Shown here one piece after another: positions 2,616 through 43,283 of a DNA stretch of 44,796 nt; positions within the stretch are counted from its first letter, which is position 1; each line of letters opens with the position of its first letter. The DNA lies in assembly GCA_003021235.1 (NCBI GenBank), contig PXQR01000050.1:1-44796 (forward strand), read 5' to 3'. The stretch is from Halobacteriales archaeon QH_6_64_20. GTDB lineage: Archaea > Halobacteriota > Halobacteria > Halobacteriales > Halococcaceae. The position numbers and the translations under genes were made by a program. The notes under the pieces are model-generated. The model saw nothing but the letters and a program-made list of their open reading frames with translations, was not told where the DNA came from and searched no databases.

Positions 2616-3416
2616 TCAGTCGTCGAGGTGGGCCTGTTCGAACGGGCGAGGCGGCAGTCGGAGTTCGTTGAGGCCGGGCAGGTGTTTGACGTTGTAGATG
2701 ACCTGCATCTCGTCGGTGACCGGGATACCGTTACACGACAGGCGGATACCGCTGTCGATCATCCCGGGCGGGAGGATGTTGTTGACCGGCATCGCCATCT
2801 CGCCGCTGACGACCGCGACCGCACAGTTCGCACACGCCCCACCCCGGCAGGCATATGGCCAAGCGAACCCGCGGTTCTCGGCGGCTTCGAGCAACGATTC
2901 GTCGGGTTGGACCAGGATACGGCCGTAGTCCATCGGATCGAGGTCCGCCTCGGAGGCTTTCTCGAAGAGGTCCTCGTCGCCGATATCCCATCCGTGATCG
3001 TCGAGCACCTCGTAGTTGAGGTACTCGACCCGCGATACCTCCCGTTCGGGCTCGTCTTCGGCGTCTCCGTTGCTTTCCGTGGCGTTCTCGCGTCCGTTTT
3101 CGGCCGCTTTGCCGTCGCCGATGTCCGCGCGCGCATCGTCCCATTCCCCGTTTCGGTAGCCCGCCTTGATCTCCTCGTAGGCCGTCCGGACTAACAGGAA
3201 CTCCTCGGCGGATCCGCCCTGATCGGGATGGGTCTCTTTCGCTCGTCGTCTGTACGCTCGTTTTATTTCCTCTTCGTTCGAACCCGGATCGATCCGCAGA
3301 ACGTCGAAGGGCGAGTCCACTGAGTATTGGTAGGGGATCGAGTAGCAAAAGCGTTCCCGATCGGGAAATCCGCCGGACGGCCGGGAGCCGGAACTCGAAG
3401 GCGAAGCGTCGATCAC
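2616..3416 (-). CDS. J-domain / plant-type [2Fe-2S] ferredoxin fusion protein
   Basis: N-terminal SPFDVLRIDPGSNEEEIKRAYRRRAKETHPDQGG (HPD motif) and C-terminal PYACRGGACANCAVAVVSGEM...IRLSCNG (CX4CX2C...C cluster ligands). Confidence 0.85.
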   Translation of the reverse strand: MIDASPSSSGSRPSGGFPDRERFCYSIPYQYSVDSPFDVLRIDPGSNEEEIKRAYRRRAKETHPDQGGSAEEFLLVRTAYEEIKAGYRNGEWDDARADIGDGKAAENGRENATESNGDAEDEPEREVSRVEYLNYEVLDDHGWDIGDEDLFEKASEADLDPMDYGRILVQPDESLLEAAENRGFAWPYACRGGACANCAVAVVSGEMAMPVNNILPPGMIDSGIRLSCNGIPVTDEMQVIYNVKHLPGLNELRLPPRPFEQAHLDD

Positions 3417-7600: not shown

Positions 7601-8578
7601 TTAGTCGTCGGCGGGCGACGCCCGCGTCGTCATCTCGACGGGATCGGCGTCGACGCCGAGTTCGTCGATCGCGACCTGGGCGGCGCGTTTCCCCGAGAGC
7701 AACATCGCGCCGAAGGTCGGGCCCATCCGCGGCAGACCGTAGGTCGTCGCGACGGCCATCCCCGTGGCGATCAGGCCAGGGTGGACGAGACCGGTGTGTT
7801 CGACGACCGCGTCTTCGGACTTTCCGACCCACATCGAGTCGTGGCCCGGCGAGTCGTGACCCGGAGCGCCGTAGCTGTCCGCGTCGGTCGCGTCCATGCC
7901 GGTACTGTTCGCGTCCGCACTGCCGAGTCCCGGCGCGTCGAGCACGCCGCGTTCGTGCAGTTTCGAGACGGCCATCGCGTCGTGGCCGGTCGCGTCGATC
8001 ACGAGGGTCCCTTCGATAGCGACCGGATCGACGCAGGTGATCTCCCGAGGCAGGGAGTGCACCGGCGTCCAGTTCATGACGATCCCGCCCACCCGATGGT
8101 CCTCGCGGATCACGATGTCGGTGAACTCCGTCATATTTTGAATCTTCGCGCCCGCGTCACACGCGGCTTTGATCAGCGCCGAGCAGGCGTGCGGACCGTT
8201 CGCGACGTAGAGGCCCTCGGTGTCCTTCGCCCGCTTGTACTCGACGTCTAGATCCTCTAAGACCGATTGGGCAGGCGAACGCACCGTCACTTTGTTCATC
8301 AGGAAGCCGCCGAGCCAGAACCCACCCCCCAGGTAGTTGTTCTTCTCGACGACCATCGCCTGGACGCCGCGTTCTGCGAGTTCGGTCGCCGCCATCAGCC
8401 CCGACGGGCCGCCGCCGACGATGATGACGTCGCTGTCGGAAAAGTCCATGAAGTCGGCGGTCCACTCCTGGCCGATCGCTCGGGTGACCTCGGCCTCGCC
8501 GACGTCACTGAACGGCTCGAATTCGGCCTCGGCGTCGGTACCAGTATCAGTATCGCTGTCGGTATCGGTTTCGCTCAT
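7601..8578 (-). CDS. thi4: thiazole biosynthesis enzyme Thi4
   Basis: [96 protein letters not shown]. Confidence 0.9.
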
Positions 8579-31045: not shown

Positions 31046-33812
31046 TCAGCCCTCGGCATCGACGCCGGGAATCGCTTCGCTCCGCCCGTCGTCGATCGAC
31101 TCCAGGACCCGTTCGTGGAACTCCTGTAGCACGCGACTCTCGTCCTCGGCGAGCACGACGTCGCTGGCCATGAGCGTCGCGAGTCCGAAGGCCCGCGGCG
31201 TCGGCGAGGAAAGCCGCTGGCTCCGGACCTCGATTTTCCCGGTCTCGACGTCGGCTACTACGTCCTCGATCGCGCCGACGTCGAGTTTGTCCTCTAACAA
31301 CTCGCGATAGGTCTCCTCGATCACGGCAAAGTTCTCTAACTCCTCGGCGAAACCCAGTAGCATCTCGCTCGAGACCTGTTGCTGGCTGGCGGATTTCTCG
31401 TAGCCCTTGTAGCGCTTGAGGATCATCAGTGCCCGCGTCGCATCGATCCGGAAGTACCGCTTGAGGAGGTCGGTGCCGTCGAGGCTCGCTCGTAGGTCCG
31501 CCCGCACCGCCTCGGGATCGATGTCCTCGATGATCCCCACGAGGTCGAGCTTCCGATTGAGCGGCATCGCGAGCGAGAAGCCGTTGTCCGCGACCGCCAC
31601 TGCGACGTTCGCGTTCGCCTCCTGTGCGCAGTGGTAGGCGAGCAGCCGCGAAAACCCGTCGTTGAATCGTCTCCCGTAGTTCGAGTGGACGTAATACCGG
31701 CGTTTGTACTCGCCGTGATCGGTTTCTTCTTCGACGGCGAGCCTCGTGGGTGTACTGACGCTCTCGCTCCCGGCGTACCTGACCTGCTCGTCGAACATCC
31801 GGGTCAGTGCCCGTAGCGCCGCCTCGTCGACCGGAAACTCCCGGAGCCACCGCCGTACGGCCGGCGGCCCACCCTCCTCTAAGCAGGCGAGTAACTCACC
31901 CTGGAAGGCGAGGATCTCGCGGCCGAGATCGTACGACAGCGGCAGGCGTTCTGCGAACCACGACGGGACGGTGGGCCGGGCACCCGTCGGATCGACGTAG
32001 ACCTTCGATCCCCGTCGGTACCGGAACTCGTAGTGACTCCCGCCGAGGACGAACACGTCGCCCTTTTCGAGCGTATCGAGGTAGTTCTCGTCCAACTGCC
32101 CGACGCGCTCGTTCCCGCCCCGGACGAACACCGAACAGGAAAACGAGTCGGGGATCGTCCCGATGTTCGTCATGTAGATCACGCGGGCGAGCCGACCGCG
32201 TTTGCCGATCAGTGCCTCGCCGACGTCGAAGTCGGGGTAGTGATGTTCGCCGTCGGGTGCGTCGTTGCTGTCGCGCCAGATCTTCGCATAGACGTTTTTG
32301 TCCTCCAAGCCCTCGTAGTCGGCGGTCAGATAGGAAAAGAGGGTCTCGAAGTCGGCGTCGGCGAACTCTCGGTAGGGATATGCACGCCGGAGGATGCCTG
32401 TTGCTTCCTTTTCAGGGCGGACGGCGTTGATCGCCATGCCGTAGACCTGCTGGGCGGCGACGTCGTGACACCCCTCGGGAACGAACACCCGATCGACGAA
32501 GTTCTCTTCGGCTTTCCGGAGCATGACCGCACACTCGACGAGTTCGTCCCGGTCGAGGACCAGCACCCGACCTTTGACCGTCTGACCGAGCCGATGGCCC
32601 GCCCGCCCGACGCGCTGGGACGTGTGGCATGTCGATCCCGAGTTCGAGGCTCGTCGAGGTGGTGACGACATCGAGACTGCCCTCTTTGAGTTTCCCCTCT
32701 ACTTCCTGGCGGCGTTCCTTCGAGAGGCTCCCGTGGTGACAGCCCGAGTCCTCCTCGGTGAAGCCGTACTGTTCACGGAGGGTGTGGAGGACCCGTTCGG
32801 CCCCCGAGCGGGTGTTGGTGAACACGAGCGTGTTCGTATGTGCCTCGATCAGTTCGGCCAGTTCGTCGTAGAAACGCCCTTTGACTACCTCACGAGGCGT
32901 GTCGATGAGGTCGGCGGCCGGACAGGACAGTTCCAAATCGAACTCCCGGGCGAAGCGGGCGTCGACGATCTCGTACTCGCGCGGCGGGCCGCCGGGCGAC
33001 TCGCGGCCGACGAGGAATTCCGCGATCGTCTCCAAGGGTTCGACGGTCGCCGAACAGCCGATTCTCGTCGGCGAGGTCTCACACATCGCTTCGAGGCGTT
33101 CGAGCGAAACCGAAAGGTGGGTGCCCCGTTTGTTCGCCGCGACGCTGTGGATCTCGTCGACGATGACGTACTCCACGGTCGAGAGCTTCTCCTTGAACTT
33201 CGGCGAGTTGAGGAGGATGGCGAGCGTCTCGGGAGTGGTGTTGAGGATGTGGGGGGTCTCTTTCAACATCCGCTGGCGGTCGGCACTGCTCGTATCGCCG
33301 TGACGGATGGCGTGGCGGATATCGATCCCGTCGCCGTCACCGTCACCGTCGCCGTCGCTGTCGTGCCCTTGGTCCTCGACACCCGGATTCGACTCCTCGG
33401 CGGCGATCTCGGCGATCTCTCCGAGGGGGACTTCGAGGTTGCGATGGATGTCGTTCGCGAGCGATTTGAGCGGCGAGATATAGAGGCAGTACACCGAGTT
33501 CTCCAGGCCGTCGTCGCGCTCGCGGCGATACAGCTCGTCGACGATCGAGGCGAAGGCAGCTTGGGTCTTCCCGCTTCCCGTCGGCGCGCAGACGAGCGTG
33601 TTCGTCCCCCGTTCGACGAGCGGGATCGCGCCGCGCTGTGGCGGGGTGAAAAACCCGCCGTTCTCGGGGACGTACTGGCCGAACTGACGCACCCACCACT
33701 CTCGCGTTACGGGTTCGAACGAGGCGAGCACGTCCTCGTCGGCGATCGCTACCTCCCGAGGATCGAAGCCCAAATCGGCGTCGAGACCACGGAGCAACTC
33801 GCGTCCGCTCAT
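31046..33812 (-). pseudogene. lhr: Lhr-type DEAD/DEAH-box superfamily 2 helicase, split by an internal frameshifting deletion near 32618
   Basis: N-part (ORF 32412-33839): FTPPQRGAIPLVERGTNTLVCAPTGSGKTQAAFASIVDEL...YVIVDEIHSVA...TSTSLELGIDMPHV; C-part in another frame (ORF 31046-32671): QRVGRAGHRLGQTVKGRVLVLDRDELVECAVMLRKAEENFVDRVFVPEGCHDVAAQQ... Confidence 0.85.
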
Positions 33813-33988
33813 TACGTACGCTCGCTCGCCCAACGGCAAGTCGGTTCGGACGGCGGCAGTACGGGACGGCCGGCGGGCTGCCCGGACTGCGCGTTCGGAT
33901 TGGCCGTTCTGTCACCTCCGAGCGGGTTCGGTTTCGAGCGATCCGGCGAAAGCCGGAAAACTAACGCGATCGCGGGCGAAGAACGGGT

Positions 33989-38295: not shown

Positions 38296-40242
38296 TCAGG
38301 AGGTATCGAGACGCGAGAGCAGTTCTCCGACGGACAGCACGTCCTCGCCGAGACCAAGGACTGACGCCGCCCGCGTCGCAACCGGTATCGTGACCCCGGC
38401 GCGCTCGATCGCCGCCCGATCCGAGTCGAAGACCGCTCGCGGCGGCCCGTCAGCGATCACCGCGCCGTCGGCGAGCACGACGAGGCGATCGGCGTGTTCG
38501 GCGGCGAACCCGACGTCGTGGGTAACGAGCACGACGAGGCGACCGGCACTGCGGCAGTCGTCGACGATGTCGCCGACGATCGAGACGCCACTCGAATCCT
38601 GGCCGCCTGTCGGTTCGTCGAGAACGACCGCGGGGGTGTCCATCGCGAGCACCGAGGCGATCGCCACCCGCCCGCGCTGTGCTCGCCCCAGATCGTAGGT
38701 ATCGGTGTCGCGAACGGCGTCGAGACCCGAGACGGCGAGGGCCTCTTCGACTAACTCGTCGACGCGTGCTTCGTCGTAGCCCAGTCGTTCGGGGCCGAAT
38801 CGGAGTTCGGATTCGACCGTCGGGCGAAACAGCTGGTCGTCCGGGTTCTGGAAACAGAGCCCGACCTCCCGAGCGAGCCTCGCAACGGGGGCCTCGCTGG
38901 TGTCACGCCCCGCGATCCGTACCGTGCCGCTCGTGGGCGTCAGGAGTCCGTTGAGCTGTTTCGCGAGCGTCGTCTTCCCGGCACCGTTGTGCCCGAGAAT
39001 CGCAACACAGCCGCCGTCCATGCTCAACGAGACGTCCGCTAGCGCGTCGGTCCCGCTCGCGTAGGTATGCGAGGCGTTCTCGACGTCGATCAACGGTGGG
39101 TCGTCGCTCGAAGCCGAGGCCGGGGGCGAAGCCGAATCCGACGGATCCGAGTTCGGCGGGTTCGCTTCCGACACGGCCGACTCCGGCGTGTTCGATCCCG
39201 ATGTGCCCGATTCCGACTCCGGTGGAACCGCCGCGGCCGAGTTCGATGGCGCCGACGCCGCTGGGGTCGTCGCCTCGCCGCTCGAAGCGCGGCGAGCGTT
39301 CGTCGATCGGAGTGCTTCGATGTCGGTTCCCACCTCCAGTTCGGCGACGGTCAGCGGCAGGTCGCCGTCGAACAGGCCGCGCTCGCGGAGTGCTCGGCCG
39401 ATCCGAAGCGTACCGGGAATCGTCACGGAGCCGTTGGACTCATTGGCCTCACTGGCCTCCTCGATCGCGGTGAGGACGGTTCGGGGATCGTCGTCGTAGC
39501 GAAGCCGGCCGTCCCCGAGGACGAGCAGGCGGTCGGCCCGCGGAGCCAATCGGTGCAGATCCTGGCTGACGAGGCAGATCGTGTACCCGGCCTCGTGCAT
39601 CGATTCGGCGAGATCGAAGACGGCCTCGGTGCCCGCCGGATCGAGCTGGGAGGTCGGCTCGTCGAGAACCAAGATACCCGGATCGAGCGCGAGCACCGAG
39701 GCGATCGCGAGGCGCTGGAGTTGCCCTCCGGAAAGCGTCCCCGGGTCGCGATCAGCAAGGGCTTCGATCCCGACGCGATCGAGACACTCGCGGGCGCGCG
39801 GCTCGATGTCCTCGCGGGGGGTTCCGATCCGCTCGAGGCCGAAGGCGACCTCCTCTAACACGGTGGTCGCCGCCCCGGTCAACTGGTCGAACGGGTCCTC
39901 GAAGACGTATCCGACGGTTTCGCCGAGTTCGCCGATCGACGACTCCGGGACGTCCGTGCCGGCGATCGATACGCTTCCGTCGAGATCGCCGTCGAAGAAG
40001 TGCGGAACGAACCCCGAGAGGCATCGACAAAAGGTGCTCTTGCCGGCGTCGCTCGGCCCCGTGATCCCGACGAACGTTCCTGCCTCGACCTGACAGTCGA
40101 CATCGATCAAGGCGGGCCGGGCGGAGTCGGCCTCCGACCCGGCGCTACTGCTACTGTCGCTATCGTCACTGTCGTTGCTATCGACGCCGCTCTTGTAACG
40201 AAAGGTGACGCCTTCGAAGCGGATGTCAGCCGAGGTCGTCAT
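38296..40242 (-). CDS. energy-coupling factor (ECF) transporter, two fused ATPase domains (EcfA-EcfA')
   Basis: Domain 1: GPSDAGKST, TLSGGQLQRLAIASVLALDPGILVLDEPTS; domain 2: GHNGAGKTTLAKQLNG, CFQNPDDQLF, YDLGRAQRGRVAIASVLAMDTPAVVLDEPTGG, VTHDVG; start at ATG 40242, 4-bp overlap with EcfT. Confidence 0.9.
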   Translation of the reverse strand: MTTSADIRFEGVTFRYKSGVDSNDSDDSDSSSSAGSEADSARPALIDVDCQVEAGTFVGITGPSDAGKSTFCRCLSGFVPHFFDGDLDGSVSIAGTDVPESSIGELGETVGYVFEDPFDQLTGAATTVLEEVAFGLERIGTPREDIEPRARECLDRVGIEALADRDPGTLSGGQLQRLAIASVLALDPGILVLDEPTSQLDPAGTEAVFDLAESMHEAGYTICLVSQDLHRLAPRADRLLVLGDGRLRYDDDPRTVLTAIEEASEANESNGSVTIPGTLRIGRALRERGLFDGDLPLTVAELEVGTDIEALRSTNARRASSGEATTPAASAPSNSAAAVPPESESGTSGSNTPESAVSEANPPNSDPSDSASPPASASSDDPPLIDVENASHTYASGTDALADVSLSMDGGCVAILGHNGAGKTTLAKQLNGLLTPTSGTVRIAGRDTSEAPVARLAREVGLCFQNPDDQLFRPTVESELRFGPERLGYDEARVDELVEEALAVSGLDAVRDTDTYDLGRAQRGRVAIASVLAMDTPAVVLDEPTGGQDSSGVSIVGDIVDDCRSAGRLVVLVTHDVGFAAEHADRLVVLADGAVIADGPPRAVFDSDRAAIERAGVTIPVATRAASVLGLGEDVLSVGELLSRLDTS

Positions 40243-41015
40243 GCGAGAACGCGCCACCCGGCGGTCACGAGCACGCCGACGACGGCGAACGCTTGTAAGA
40301 GGCGTTCGGCGGGCGGTTCGCTCACCTGGTAGAGGTGGGTTCGCGGTCCCTGCCCGGAAAAGCCCCGGGCTTCGAGCGCGAGCGAGCGCGTCTGTGCGGA
40401 GACGAGCGCCCCGATGAGAAGCGGGCTCGCGAGCGCGACGAACGCCCGAAAACGATCGGTGAGCCCGCCGCTCACGTCCAATCCGCGGGACTGCTGGGCG
40501 TCCAGGATACGGCGGGCACGCGCTTGGAGATCGGGGACCAACTGCAAGGAAGCCAGAAAGACGTAGCTCACGTTCTCCGGGACGCCGCGCTCGATCAGCG
40601 CAGTTGTCAGCCGTTTGGGGTGGGTCGTCGCGACGAAGGTGAGCGCAACGACGACGAACGTCGCGAGGATCACGAGCGTCCGGAGCCCGAGGACGAGCCC
40701 GCCCTGCCAGACGGTAAGCGGGCCGAGCGTCGCCAGCGGAACCCGCCCTGCCGGGGTAAAGAGTCCGTGCAGAACGACGAGCCCGACCGCGAGCGGTGCC
40801 AGTACTGTCGCGGCCGTTCGGACTACGCTTCGCCCGACACCGCCGACGAAAGCGCTCAGCACCGCCAGCCCTAACGTGACGAGGAGTCCACCCCATCCCG
40901 GGAGGGCAAATGTCACGAGCACTAACGCGGCGCCACAGACGAGTTTCGTGACCGGGCTGAGAGCGTGGATCGGGCTATCGGCGGGCTGATAAGTGAAGAA
41001 ACCCGTGCCGTTCAT
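40239..41015 (-). CDS. ecfT: ECF transporter transmembrane component EcfT
   Basis: SPIHALSPVTKLVCGAALVLVTFALPGW...FLASLQLVPDLQARARRILDAQQSRGLD...AQTRSLALEARGF. Confidence 0.85.
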   Translation of the reverse strand: MNGTGFFTYQPADSPIHALSPVTKLVCGAALVLVTFALPGWGGLLVTLGLAVLSAFVGGVGRSVVRTAATVLAPLAVGLVVLHGLFTPAGRVPLATLGPLTVWQGGLVLGLRTLVILATFVVVALTFVATTHPKRLTTALIERGVPENVSYVFLASLQLVPDLQARARRILDAQQSRGLDVSGGLTDRFRAFVALASPLLIGALVSAQTRSLALEARGFSGQGPRTHLYQVSEPPAERLLQAFAVVGVLVTAGWRVLA

Positions 41016-41707
41016 CCCCGTAGCGACCGGAACCGCTCGGAGAGCCGGCCCGCTTTATCGAGTACCGGCGCGGCGGTCGACGGCCGGTATCGCTCGGGAA
41101 CGCGTTTCGCGATGAGCGCGGCGAGTACCGCCGTAATGACCTTGTCGACCGGTTCGACGACGATCGTCTGTCCGATCACCGCCCCCCACAGCTCCGATCC
41201 GGTGGCGAGGAAAAATCCCGTCACGGCGTCCGATCCGGTGCCCGTGACTCCGCCGAAGACGGTGACCGTGATAGGCGCGCCCAGCGCGATCGAGAGAAAG
41301 GCGACGACGAGCCCGACACCTACGATCCGTCCGTAGGTCCGAAACCAACCACGATTGGCCATGTAGCCCGCGGCGAGGCCGAAGGCGACCTGGAGCGGCG
41401 TGTAGGGGATAAAGGTCGGATTGACGAGCACGCCCTCGACGAGGTTGACGAACAGCCCCGTGAGCGCCGCCGCCCACGGCCCGACGAGCACCGCGATCAG
41501 CAGTGTCCCGAGCGCGTCGAGGTAGATCGGGAGCCGAAGCGCGTTCACGAAGAAGGCCGCGACGACACTGATCGCGACGCCGATCGGGATGAGCACCCAC
41601 GTCTGTGTCGTGAACTCCCCCCGGATCCCGTCGAGCACCGAGCCACCCTCGGCCGTCGTCTCGCTCATGTACGGATCCACCCCGTGTTCGAAGTCATTGA
41701 AATTCAT
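41012..41707 (-). CDS. ECF transporter substrate-binding S component
   Basis: FFVNALRLPIYLDALGTLLIAVLVGPWAAALTGLFVNLVEGVLVNPTFIPYTPLQVAFGLAAGYMANRGWF; 4-bp overlap with ecfT; SD-like ggaggtg just upstream on the minus strand. Confidence 0.8.
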   Translation of the reverse strand: MNFNDFEHGVDPYMSETTAEGGSVLDGIRGEFTTQTWVLIPIGVAISVVAAFFVNALRLPIYLDALGTLLIAVLVGPWAAALTGLFVNLVEGVLVNPTFIPYTPLQVAFGLAAGYMANRGWFRTYGRIVGVGLVVAFLSIALGAPITVTVFGGVTGTGSDAVTGFFLATGSELWGAVIGQTIVVEPVDKVITAVLAALIAKRVPERYRPSTAAPVLDKAGRLSERFRSLRG

Positions 41708-41912: not shown

Positions 41913-43283
41913 TCAGCACGACTCGTCGCGGGCGAGCGCTACCGTTCGATCGGCGAGCGTCGAGATCCGGGGGGTTGCGTACCCGCTGAGAGCCGTCTCG
42001 ACGCGGCCGGAAAGCGGTGCCGTCCATCGCTCGTCGAGTGCTTCCCGACCGCGGCGTAATCCGACGATCGAGCCGACCGTCGCGCCATTACAGTCGGTAT
42101 CGAAGCCCGCCTCGACCGCCCGGCAGATCGCATCGCCGAACCCCTCGCCCCACAGGAGCGAGATCGCGACGATCCGGGCGTTGCTGATCGCGTGGAATTT
42201 GCCGTAGAGGGTACTTTCGTCCCACCGGTCGCCGACGACTGCAACGGCCTCGTCGTAGGTGAGGCCGCGCTCGTACTGGTCGAGGACGTCCTCGATTGCC
42301 TCTGCGAGCCGTGAGGCCGCCGGGATCTGTACGAGTCCGGCCAGAAGGAGTCGTTCCCTGCTCGCTACCACTGGCGCGGCCGCGAGCATCGCCGCGACCC
42401 ACATCGCCCCGTAGATCCCGTTACGAACGTGACTGAGCCGCGCGTCGCGCCAAGCGAGTGTGGCGGCGAGCGTCGGTTGCCCGGGGGTGATCCACCCGTA
42501 GAGGTCGGCCCGGATCCCCGCCCCGATGAACTCCCGGTAGGGGTTCCGGGCGGTGGCCGTCGCCGGTGGCTCGTAACCGTTACAGACGTTCCGGTACGCG
42601 ACGCGTTCTGCGGTGTAAAGTCTCCCAACTGGAAAGCCCTCGATCCAGGTGTCGGAGACGTCGCTCGTCGTGAACTCGCGCCCGCACCGCTCTACCGTAT
42701 CGAGCGCCGCGATCGTGAAGTCGACGTCGTCGTCGCGGGGCATGCCGTCGGTCTCGTCAACGAACCCGGTCGTCGCATTCATCGGGTAGCGCTCGGCGAC
42801 CGCGCTGGGAACATCCGACGAGAGGTAGCCCTCAAGCGGGTAGCGATCGGTCTCGCGGAGGAATCCTTCGATCGTCTCGCCGTCCCACAGCTCGACGGGT
42901 TTGCCGAGCAGACACCCGGCACAGCGACCCGCCCACGCGCCGGCGATCCGGCCGTTGAGGTCGGCGGCAGTGGAACCGGCAACGTCCTCGGAGTCGAGAC
43001 CGCCAGCATCGTCGAGCGACGGGGCATCGACCGGTCGCGCCGCTCGGATCGCGTCGAGGTCGTTCGGCTCGTTGTACTCGTACCCCGACCGCTGGGGAAG
43101 CGTCGCGGCCTCGTCGAGGAGGTCCTCGGCAGCCGTCCGCCAGTCGGTAGTCCCGGTCGCATCGGCTTCGATCAGTGTATCGAACTCCGCGTCGAGCGTC
43201 TCGACCGCTCGCCCGGCGTCGGCGAGCTGTCGGCGCTCGGTGGCGAGGTCGGCCGGGCCGAGCTGTAGGTACTCGATCGTCAT
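41913..43283 (-). CDS. ADP-ribosylglycohydrolase family protein
   Basis: GRIAGAWAGRCAGCLLGKPVELWDGETIEGFL...GMPRDDDVDFTIAALDTVER...GFDTDCNGATVGSIVGLRRG. Confidence 0.85.
   Translation of the reverse strand: MTIEYLQLGPADLATERRQLADAGRAVETLDAEFDTLIEADATGTTDWRTAAEDLLDEAATLPQRSGYEYNEPNDLDAIRAARPVDAPSLDDAGGLDSEDVAGSTAADLNGRIAGAWAGRCAGCLLGKPVELWDGETIEGFLRETDRYPLEGYLSSDVPSAVAERYPMNATTGFVDETDGMPRDDDVDFTIAALDTVERCGREFTTSDVSDTWIEGFPVGRLYTAERVAYRNVCNGYEPPATATARNPYREFIGAGIRADLYGWITPGQPTLAATLAWRDARLSHVRNGIYGAMWVAAMLAAAPVVASRERLLLAGLVQIPAASRLAEAIEDVLDQYERGLTYDEAVAVVGDRWDESTLYGKFHAISNARIVAISLLWGEGFGDAICRAVEAGFDTDCNGATVGSIVGLRRGREALDERWTAPLSGRVETALSGYATPRISTLADRTVALARDESC

Follow-up and report, generated by a model that had tools for sequence, protein, structure and literature searches.

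The question raised by this locus is whether an ECF importer can run on a single catalytic ATP site. ABC exporters with one degenerate site are well known. In the 44,796-nucleotide stretch of contig PXQR01000050.1 from Halobacteriales archaeon QH_6_64_20 that we analyzed (the window), a fused ECF ATPase was described in a preliminary description as apparently having one canonical and one degenerate ATP site, an asymmetry which was not known to its author from ECF importers. We compared the two domains of this protein (NBD1 and NBD2, referred to as A1 and A2 where relatives are included) with solved ECF chains and with orthologs, as had been proposed there, and analyzed the genes around them.

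The ATPase gene is the last of an operon with the gene order S-T-A, and its two domains are joined head to tail in one chain (Table 1). The ATG of the ATPase at 40242 shares 4 bp with the stop of the T gene, and the S and T genes also overlap by 4 bp. The T protein was recognized as a CbiQ/EcfT-type transmembrane subunit by PF02361 (97 bits, cut-off 25), and its two X-Arg-X coupling-helix motifs, through which EcfT grips both ATPases, are conserved in the homologs, as is typical of ECF systems. The S component scored just under the cut-off of PF12822 and under that of NF045596, and its gene adjoins the T and A genes in nearly all loci. The fused ATPase matched TIGR04521 with 367 bits (cut-off 330) and TIGR04520 with 363 bits (cut-off 315), each summed over the two domains. 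The Q-helix of ECF ATPases has the consensus X-P-D/E-X-Q-hydrophobic (PMC6828968); NPDDQL of NBD2 fits it, and DPFDQL of NBD1 has F at the acidic position. Judged from these sequence matches, the operon most likely encodes a dedicated, group I-like ECF importer, for which ATP-driven uptake by toppling of the S component is predicted.

Table 1. Genes of the ECF operon and ATPase motifs in the window
Feature	Position	Strand	Remarks
ADP-ribosylglycohydrolase family enzyme	41913..43283	-	Upstream of the S, T and A genes, same strand
S component, distant CD3073-like	41012..41707	-	NF045596 121 bits (E 3.8e-35, cut-off 180); PF12822 30.6 bits (cut-off 30.7)
EcfT (CbiQ family) subunit	40239..41015	-	Coupling motifs QQSRGLD and LEARGF both kept
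Fused ECF ATPase, EcfA1-like NBD1 and EcfA2-like NBD2	38296..40242	-	648 aa
NBD1 Walker A GPSDAGKS, residues 62-69	40036..40059	-	Fourth G to D; Lys68 and Ser69 kept; site I
NBD1 Q-loop FEDPFDQL, residues 114-121	39880..39903	-	Q to E115; site I
NBD1 signature LSGGQ, residues 170-174	39721..39735	-	Invariant; canonical site II
NBD1 Walker B ILVLDEP, residues 190-196	39655..39675	-	Asp194 and catalytic Glu195 present; site I
NBD1 H-loop VSQD	39559..39570	-	H to Q227; site I
NBD2 Walker A GHNGAGKT, residues 417-424	38971..38994	-	Canonical site II
NBD2 Q-loop FQNPDDQ, residues 464-470	38833..38853	-	Canonical site II
NBD2 signature LGRAQ, residues 518-522	38677..38691	-	Replaces LSGGQ; predicted degenerate site I
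NBD2 Walker B AVVLDEP	38611..38631	-	Catalytic Glu543; canonical site II
NBD2 D-loop Q548-D549	38596..38601	-	L to Q, shared by all 34 homologs; facing site I
NBD2 H-loop VTHD	38515..38526	-	H575; canonical site II

In the composite arrangement, site I is formed by the Walker A, Q-loop, Walker B and H-loop of A1 together with the signature and D-loop of A2, and site II by the same four motifs of A2 together with the signature and D-loop of A1. NBD1 and NBD2 were aligned residue by residue with solved EcfA1, EcfA2 and CbiO chains, and no shift in the motif assignments was found. The closest solved ECF chains were EcfA1 from L. delbrueckii and L. brevis for NBD1 and EcfA2/CbiO for NBD2. The readings first given for both domains, including the Q-to-E and H-to-Q changes of NBD1 and the non-LSGGQ signature of NBD2, are therefore as quoted and in register. 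The statement that NBD1 keeps its Walker A is right for the Lys and Ser but not for the fourth residue, which is Asp in place of Gly. A further change lies in the D-loop of NBD2, which reads GGQDS where the consensus is xGLDx. Because these two additional deviations also fall in site I, the case for a one-sided loss is stronger than it was originally made. The catalytic Glu of site I is not replaced in this protein. Given the losses in the signature, Q-loop and H-loop, we infer that site I of the QH_6_64_20 ATPase is degenerate.

These composite sites would be different if the two halves did not form an intramolecular dimer and the fused protein paired with another ATPase, and the QH_6_64_20 genome does encode many other ABC ATPases (95 matches). 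We consider such a partnership very improbable. The AlphaFold2 model (21-sequence alignment; mean pLDDT 80.8, pTM 0.74), in which the interdomain linker at about residues 306-378 is disordered, has full-length matches to two fused NBD proteins of M. tuberculosis, OppD and DppD, and the two halves taken singly match CbiO and EcfA2. In addition, an A2-A2 pairing would leave no signature at all. The losses in A1 and A2 are complementary even where the two are encoded by adjacent separate genes, a pattern that a heterodimer would be expected to show.

Orthologs of the S component were gathered blind to the ATPase sequence. They were present in 11 of the 394 genomes of the class, QH_6_64_20 included, and an alignment-based scan of public genomes yielded 32 loci, unlike a single-sequence scan of genome contigs, which gave no match. 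In a search across the phylum with the family NF045596, the QH_6_64_20 genome was the sole match. We scored 34 distinct complete A1/A2 pairs, fused or encoded by separate genes, from haloarchaea, Arthrobacter, Acidimicrobiia and Chloroflexi, using 13 residues per site (Gly4, Lys and Ser/Thr of Walker A, the Q-loop Gln, Asp and Glu of Walker B, the H-loop His, S-G-G-Q of the signature and L-D of the D-loop). Loci whose A genes are incomplete or broken (L025, L041, L048, L055, L057, L058 and L062), the duplicates L039 (identical to L026) and L050 (identical to L030) and the solitary S gene of L067 were left out. Over the 34 pairs, site I had 241 deviations and site II had 0. The one-sidedness is thus conserved among orthologs and exceeds chance, and the scoring agrees with the alignments to solved chains in placing every deviation in one composite site and leaving the other canonical. 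The Q-loop Glu of A1 and the D-loop Gln of A2 are invariant in the 21 fused proteins, suggesting that the altered state has been selected and is not drifting. As controls, all 36 other domains of the same class that match the ECF_ATPase_2 profile were canonical, and another type of fused EcfA was canonical in its catalytic residues in 9 of 9 genomes of the class.

The QH_6_64_20 genome consists of 152 contigs and is about 90% complete, and private drift, a pseudogene or an assembly error might be suspected as the source of the unusual motifs. We regard this as practically negligible, since 33 further complete pairs, drawn from isolates as well as metagenomes of several phyla, show the same pattern, and no stop interrupts the 648-aa reading frame within the overlapping operon. 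The ortholog comparison thus rules out the private drift or sequencing error that the preliminary description had named as a possible refutation. Two of the excluded loci deserve a mention of their own. Genome G331 carries an EcfA ORF with an apparent frameshift in NBD1 (L025:6493-8993) and, in a second system of haloarchaeal clade 2 (L033), an intact one. A Dorea homolog of the S component (L067:5965-6582) has no ECF-type EcfA gene nearby, which is consistent with its relying on a shared group II module.

In the phylogenetic tree, the A1 domains form one group (SH-aLRT 94) and the A2 domains another (SH-aLRT 99). A2 groups with EcfA2/CbiO, and A1 groups weakly with EcfA1 (SH-aLRT 68). A concatenated A1/A2 tree, built after removal of the motif columns, requires at least 19 character changes, all of them in site I. 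Two changes in A2, the loss of its signature glycine and the L-to-Q change of its D-loop, are single ancestral events on this tree. The Q-loop Gln was replaced by Glu or Asp once, the Walker B Asp was lost once and the Walker A Ser/Thr became Ala once, and changes occurred repeatedly at the catalytic Glu (three times), the Walker A Gly (four times) and the H-loop His (five times). In most Chloroflexi, A1 is canonical or nearly so, and only the A2 signature (LSPTW) and D-loop are changed. The A1 domains of Acidimicrobiia-like bacteria read FDNP, LDDP and VAQD, and those of haloarchaea read FENP with mostly GPSDAGK and VSQ. In haloarchaeal clade 2 (L033, L034, L059, L066 and L068), both the Walker B Asp and the catalytic Glu of A1 are lost (LQQP or LRQP), and four of the five loci also have GKA in the A1 Walker A, with Ala for the Mg-binding Ser/Thr, next to a perfect site II. 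The family therefore offers a graded natural series, from loss of the signature only in most Chloroflexi to what appears to be a fully dead site in clade 2.

A1 and A2 are separate neighboring genes in Chloroflexi and Acidimicrobiia and are fused in haloarchaea and Arthrobacter. Since the separate-gene pairs share the one-sidedness, the fusion is not the origin of the asymmetry, and the other type of fused EcfA is free of it. An example of the latter is the second fused double EcfA of the QH_6_64_20 genome (L036:4689-6782), which we take to be of the YkoD/ThiX-like type. It likewise has two EcfA domains beside a CbiQ-type T gene and is 34% identical to the degenerate-site ATPase over the full length. 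However, it carries the catalytic residues in both sites (GASGGGKS/Q/LSGGQ/DE/H in the first domain and GxNGSGKT/Q/[LF]SKGQ/DE/H in the second).

What the altered site might do can be considered from the residues that are left. The A-loop Tyr of A1 is kept in 32 of 32 scorable proteins and the P-loop Lys in 34 of 34, so that site I probably still binds nucleotide. Because Lys68, Ser69, Asp194 and Glu195 are intact in the QH_6_64_20 protein, residual or slow hydrolysis there is possible. We think it probable that in this importer site II is built for hydrolysis and that site I holds ATP with little or no hydrolysis. In analogy with known ECF transporters, ATP binding would close the NBDs, move EcfT and expel the S component. 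Site I, with its ATP bound, would hold the domains together, and the hydrolysis of one ATP per cycle at site II, where the motifs of NBD2 meet LSGGQ of NBD1, would reset the transporter. We know of no experimental precedent for a one-site ECF cycle.

The best-suited comparison is the group II module of L. delbrueckii ECF-FolT2 (EcfA/EcfA'/T; PDB 8BMP-8BMS). It is similar to the present system in that NBD1 resembles EcfA1, NBD2 is of the EcfA2 type and the coupling motifs of T are kept, but it is composed of separate subunits common to many S components, has canonical sequences in both sites and depends on both of its catalytic Glu residues. Either substitution, EcfA E169Q or EcfA' E'171Q, abolishes ATPase activity and folate transport, and the structure under turnover contains ATP in EcfA and ADP in EcfA' (PMC10368641). 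By counting in the alignment of 8BMR chain A, E169 is the EcfA1 position. The degenerate site of the present family thus corresponds to the EcfA1 site, which kept ATP in the turnover structure. By this analogy, the best reading may be that the family has fixed the asymmetry of L. delbrueckii turnover, with ATP held at site I and hydrolyzed at site II. For the family as a whole, we lean slightly towards a multi-phylum group of ECF nucleoside importers with a single hydrolytic site, in which the EcfA1 site would be a permanent ATP-holding clamp.

It could also be argued that both sites hydrolyze ATP and that the signature, Q-loop and H-loop variants tune its rate or coupling, with site I not abolished. 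The Lys and Ser of Walker A and the Asp and Glu of Walker B are in place in NBD1 of QH_6_64_20, most Chloroflexi pairs differ in the A2 signature and D-loop only, and the L. delbrueckii transporter requires two catalytic sites. Nevertheless, we consider this explanation unlikely, because the altered signature, Q-loop and H-loop all converge on one site, and because the five haloarchaeal relatives of clade 2 have QQ or RQ for the DE of Walker B, four of them also with the Ala described above, and retain a perfect site II. What speaks against a single hydrolytic site is that the QH_6_64_20 protein has not undergone the loss of its catalytic Glu, which has been named as the hallmark of degeneracy (PMC7544095); such a replacement is found in A1 of 9 of the 34 pairs. 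If the reading with a single hydrolytic site is true, a single hydrolysis event is enough for the ECF cycle, and evolution has fixed a transient asymmetry of group II ECF modules. A candidate for a natural one-site ECF motor bears on the number of ATP consumed per substrate and on the equivalence of the two sites, and the conserved loss at the EcfA1 site contrasts with the tested ECF module, in which both catalytic glutamates are required.

Outside the ECF transporters, the exporters or channels TAP, TM287/288, BmrCD and CFTR/MRP have the same distribution of deviations, in one site formed by the Walker, Q- and H-motifs of NBD1 and the signature of NBD2. They differ in having fused transmembrane domains, and degenerate-site exporters have usually lost the catalytic Glu, a loss seen in only some members of the present family. 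In exporters, the degenerate site has been described as using ATP as glue and staying closed over several cycles (PMC7756269). Among importers, the B. subtilis proteins RbsA and NupO are fused NBD pairs of which one ATP site has been reported to be degenerate (PMC11466899), and their substrates, ribose and guanosine, are of the kind predicted below for the QH_6_64_20 importer. However, they are not ECF transporters and rely on substrate-binding proteins. In addition, it is their second Walker A that has no Lys, whereas in the QH_6_64_20 ATPase the motifs of the first domain deviate and the Lys is kept. We infer that the likeness is convergent rather than shared. In the open-access literature searched, no description of an ECF transporter with one degenerate site was found, and an earlier mention elsewhere is possible. 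The view that the asymmetry was undescribed thus holds for ECF transporters within that literature but not for importers in general; what appears to be new is the degenerate site in an ECF system, since exporters with one degenerate site and the importers RbsA and NupO were already known.

The substrate was approached through the neighboring genes. Of 42 loci, 32 have the gene of one of three enzymes next to the operon, an IU nucleoside hydrolase in 21, an ADP-ribosylglycohydrolase in 7 and an amidohydrolase in 4, and PfkB kinases are found near the operon in Chloroflexi. This neighborhood suggests that the importer takes up nucleosides. The QH_6_64_20 genome (about 90% complete) encodes one IU nucleoside hydrolase, away from the operon, and no Bmp-type nucleoside-binding protein was found in it. 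The ADP-ribosylglycohydrolase gene is a conserved neighbor in the subclade of the QH_6_64_20 locus. This PF03747 enzyme sits, in the window and in L025, L026, L027, L040, L041 and L042, where other loci have the IU nucleoside hydrolase, and nucleosides or related ribosides may be its substrates.

Queuosine salvage is another case in which a nucleoside hydrolase accompanies an ECF S component. It was set aside as the function of the present system, because haloarchaea make archaeosine and the neighbors include ribokinase-like PfkB and phosphorylase-superfamily enzymes. In the open-access literature searched, we found no description of nucleosides, the substrate class predicted here, as the substrate of an ECF importer.

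Several loci have further genes of their own. In the Acidimicrobiia-like operons L049:8561-10156, L051, L054 and L055, in which the Walker B of A1 is LDDP, genes for a PF01048 protein of the phosphorylase superfamily and for an amidohydrolase follow those of the transporter; the PF01048 assignment was confirmed in L049, and the protein clusters with ORFs of the other three loci. The five clade-2 loci carry two nucleoside hydrolase genes each, together with conserved genes for an epimerase, an MR_MLE enzyme and an FAA hydrolase, which would fit sugar catabolism after cleavage, as if for an oxidative breakdown of ribose. Several of them also contain a universal stress protein gene.

Elsewhere in the window, on the same strand as the operon, a helicase-like gene (31046-33839, Lhr-type by eye) is present as two ORFs (32412-33839 and 31046-32671) that overlap in different frames, and the split appears to be a frameshift or an assembly error. 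Two other ORFs on this strand were judged by eye: the one at 2616-3416 combines a DnaJ-like N terminus with a 2Fe-2S ferredoxin-like C terminus, and the one at 7601-8578 resembles Thi4-type thiazole synthase.
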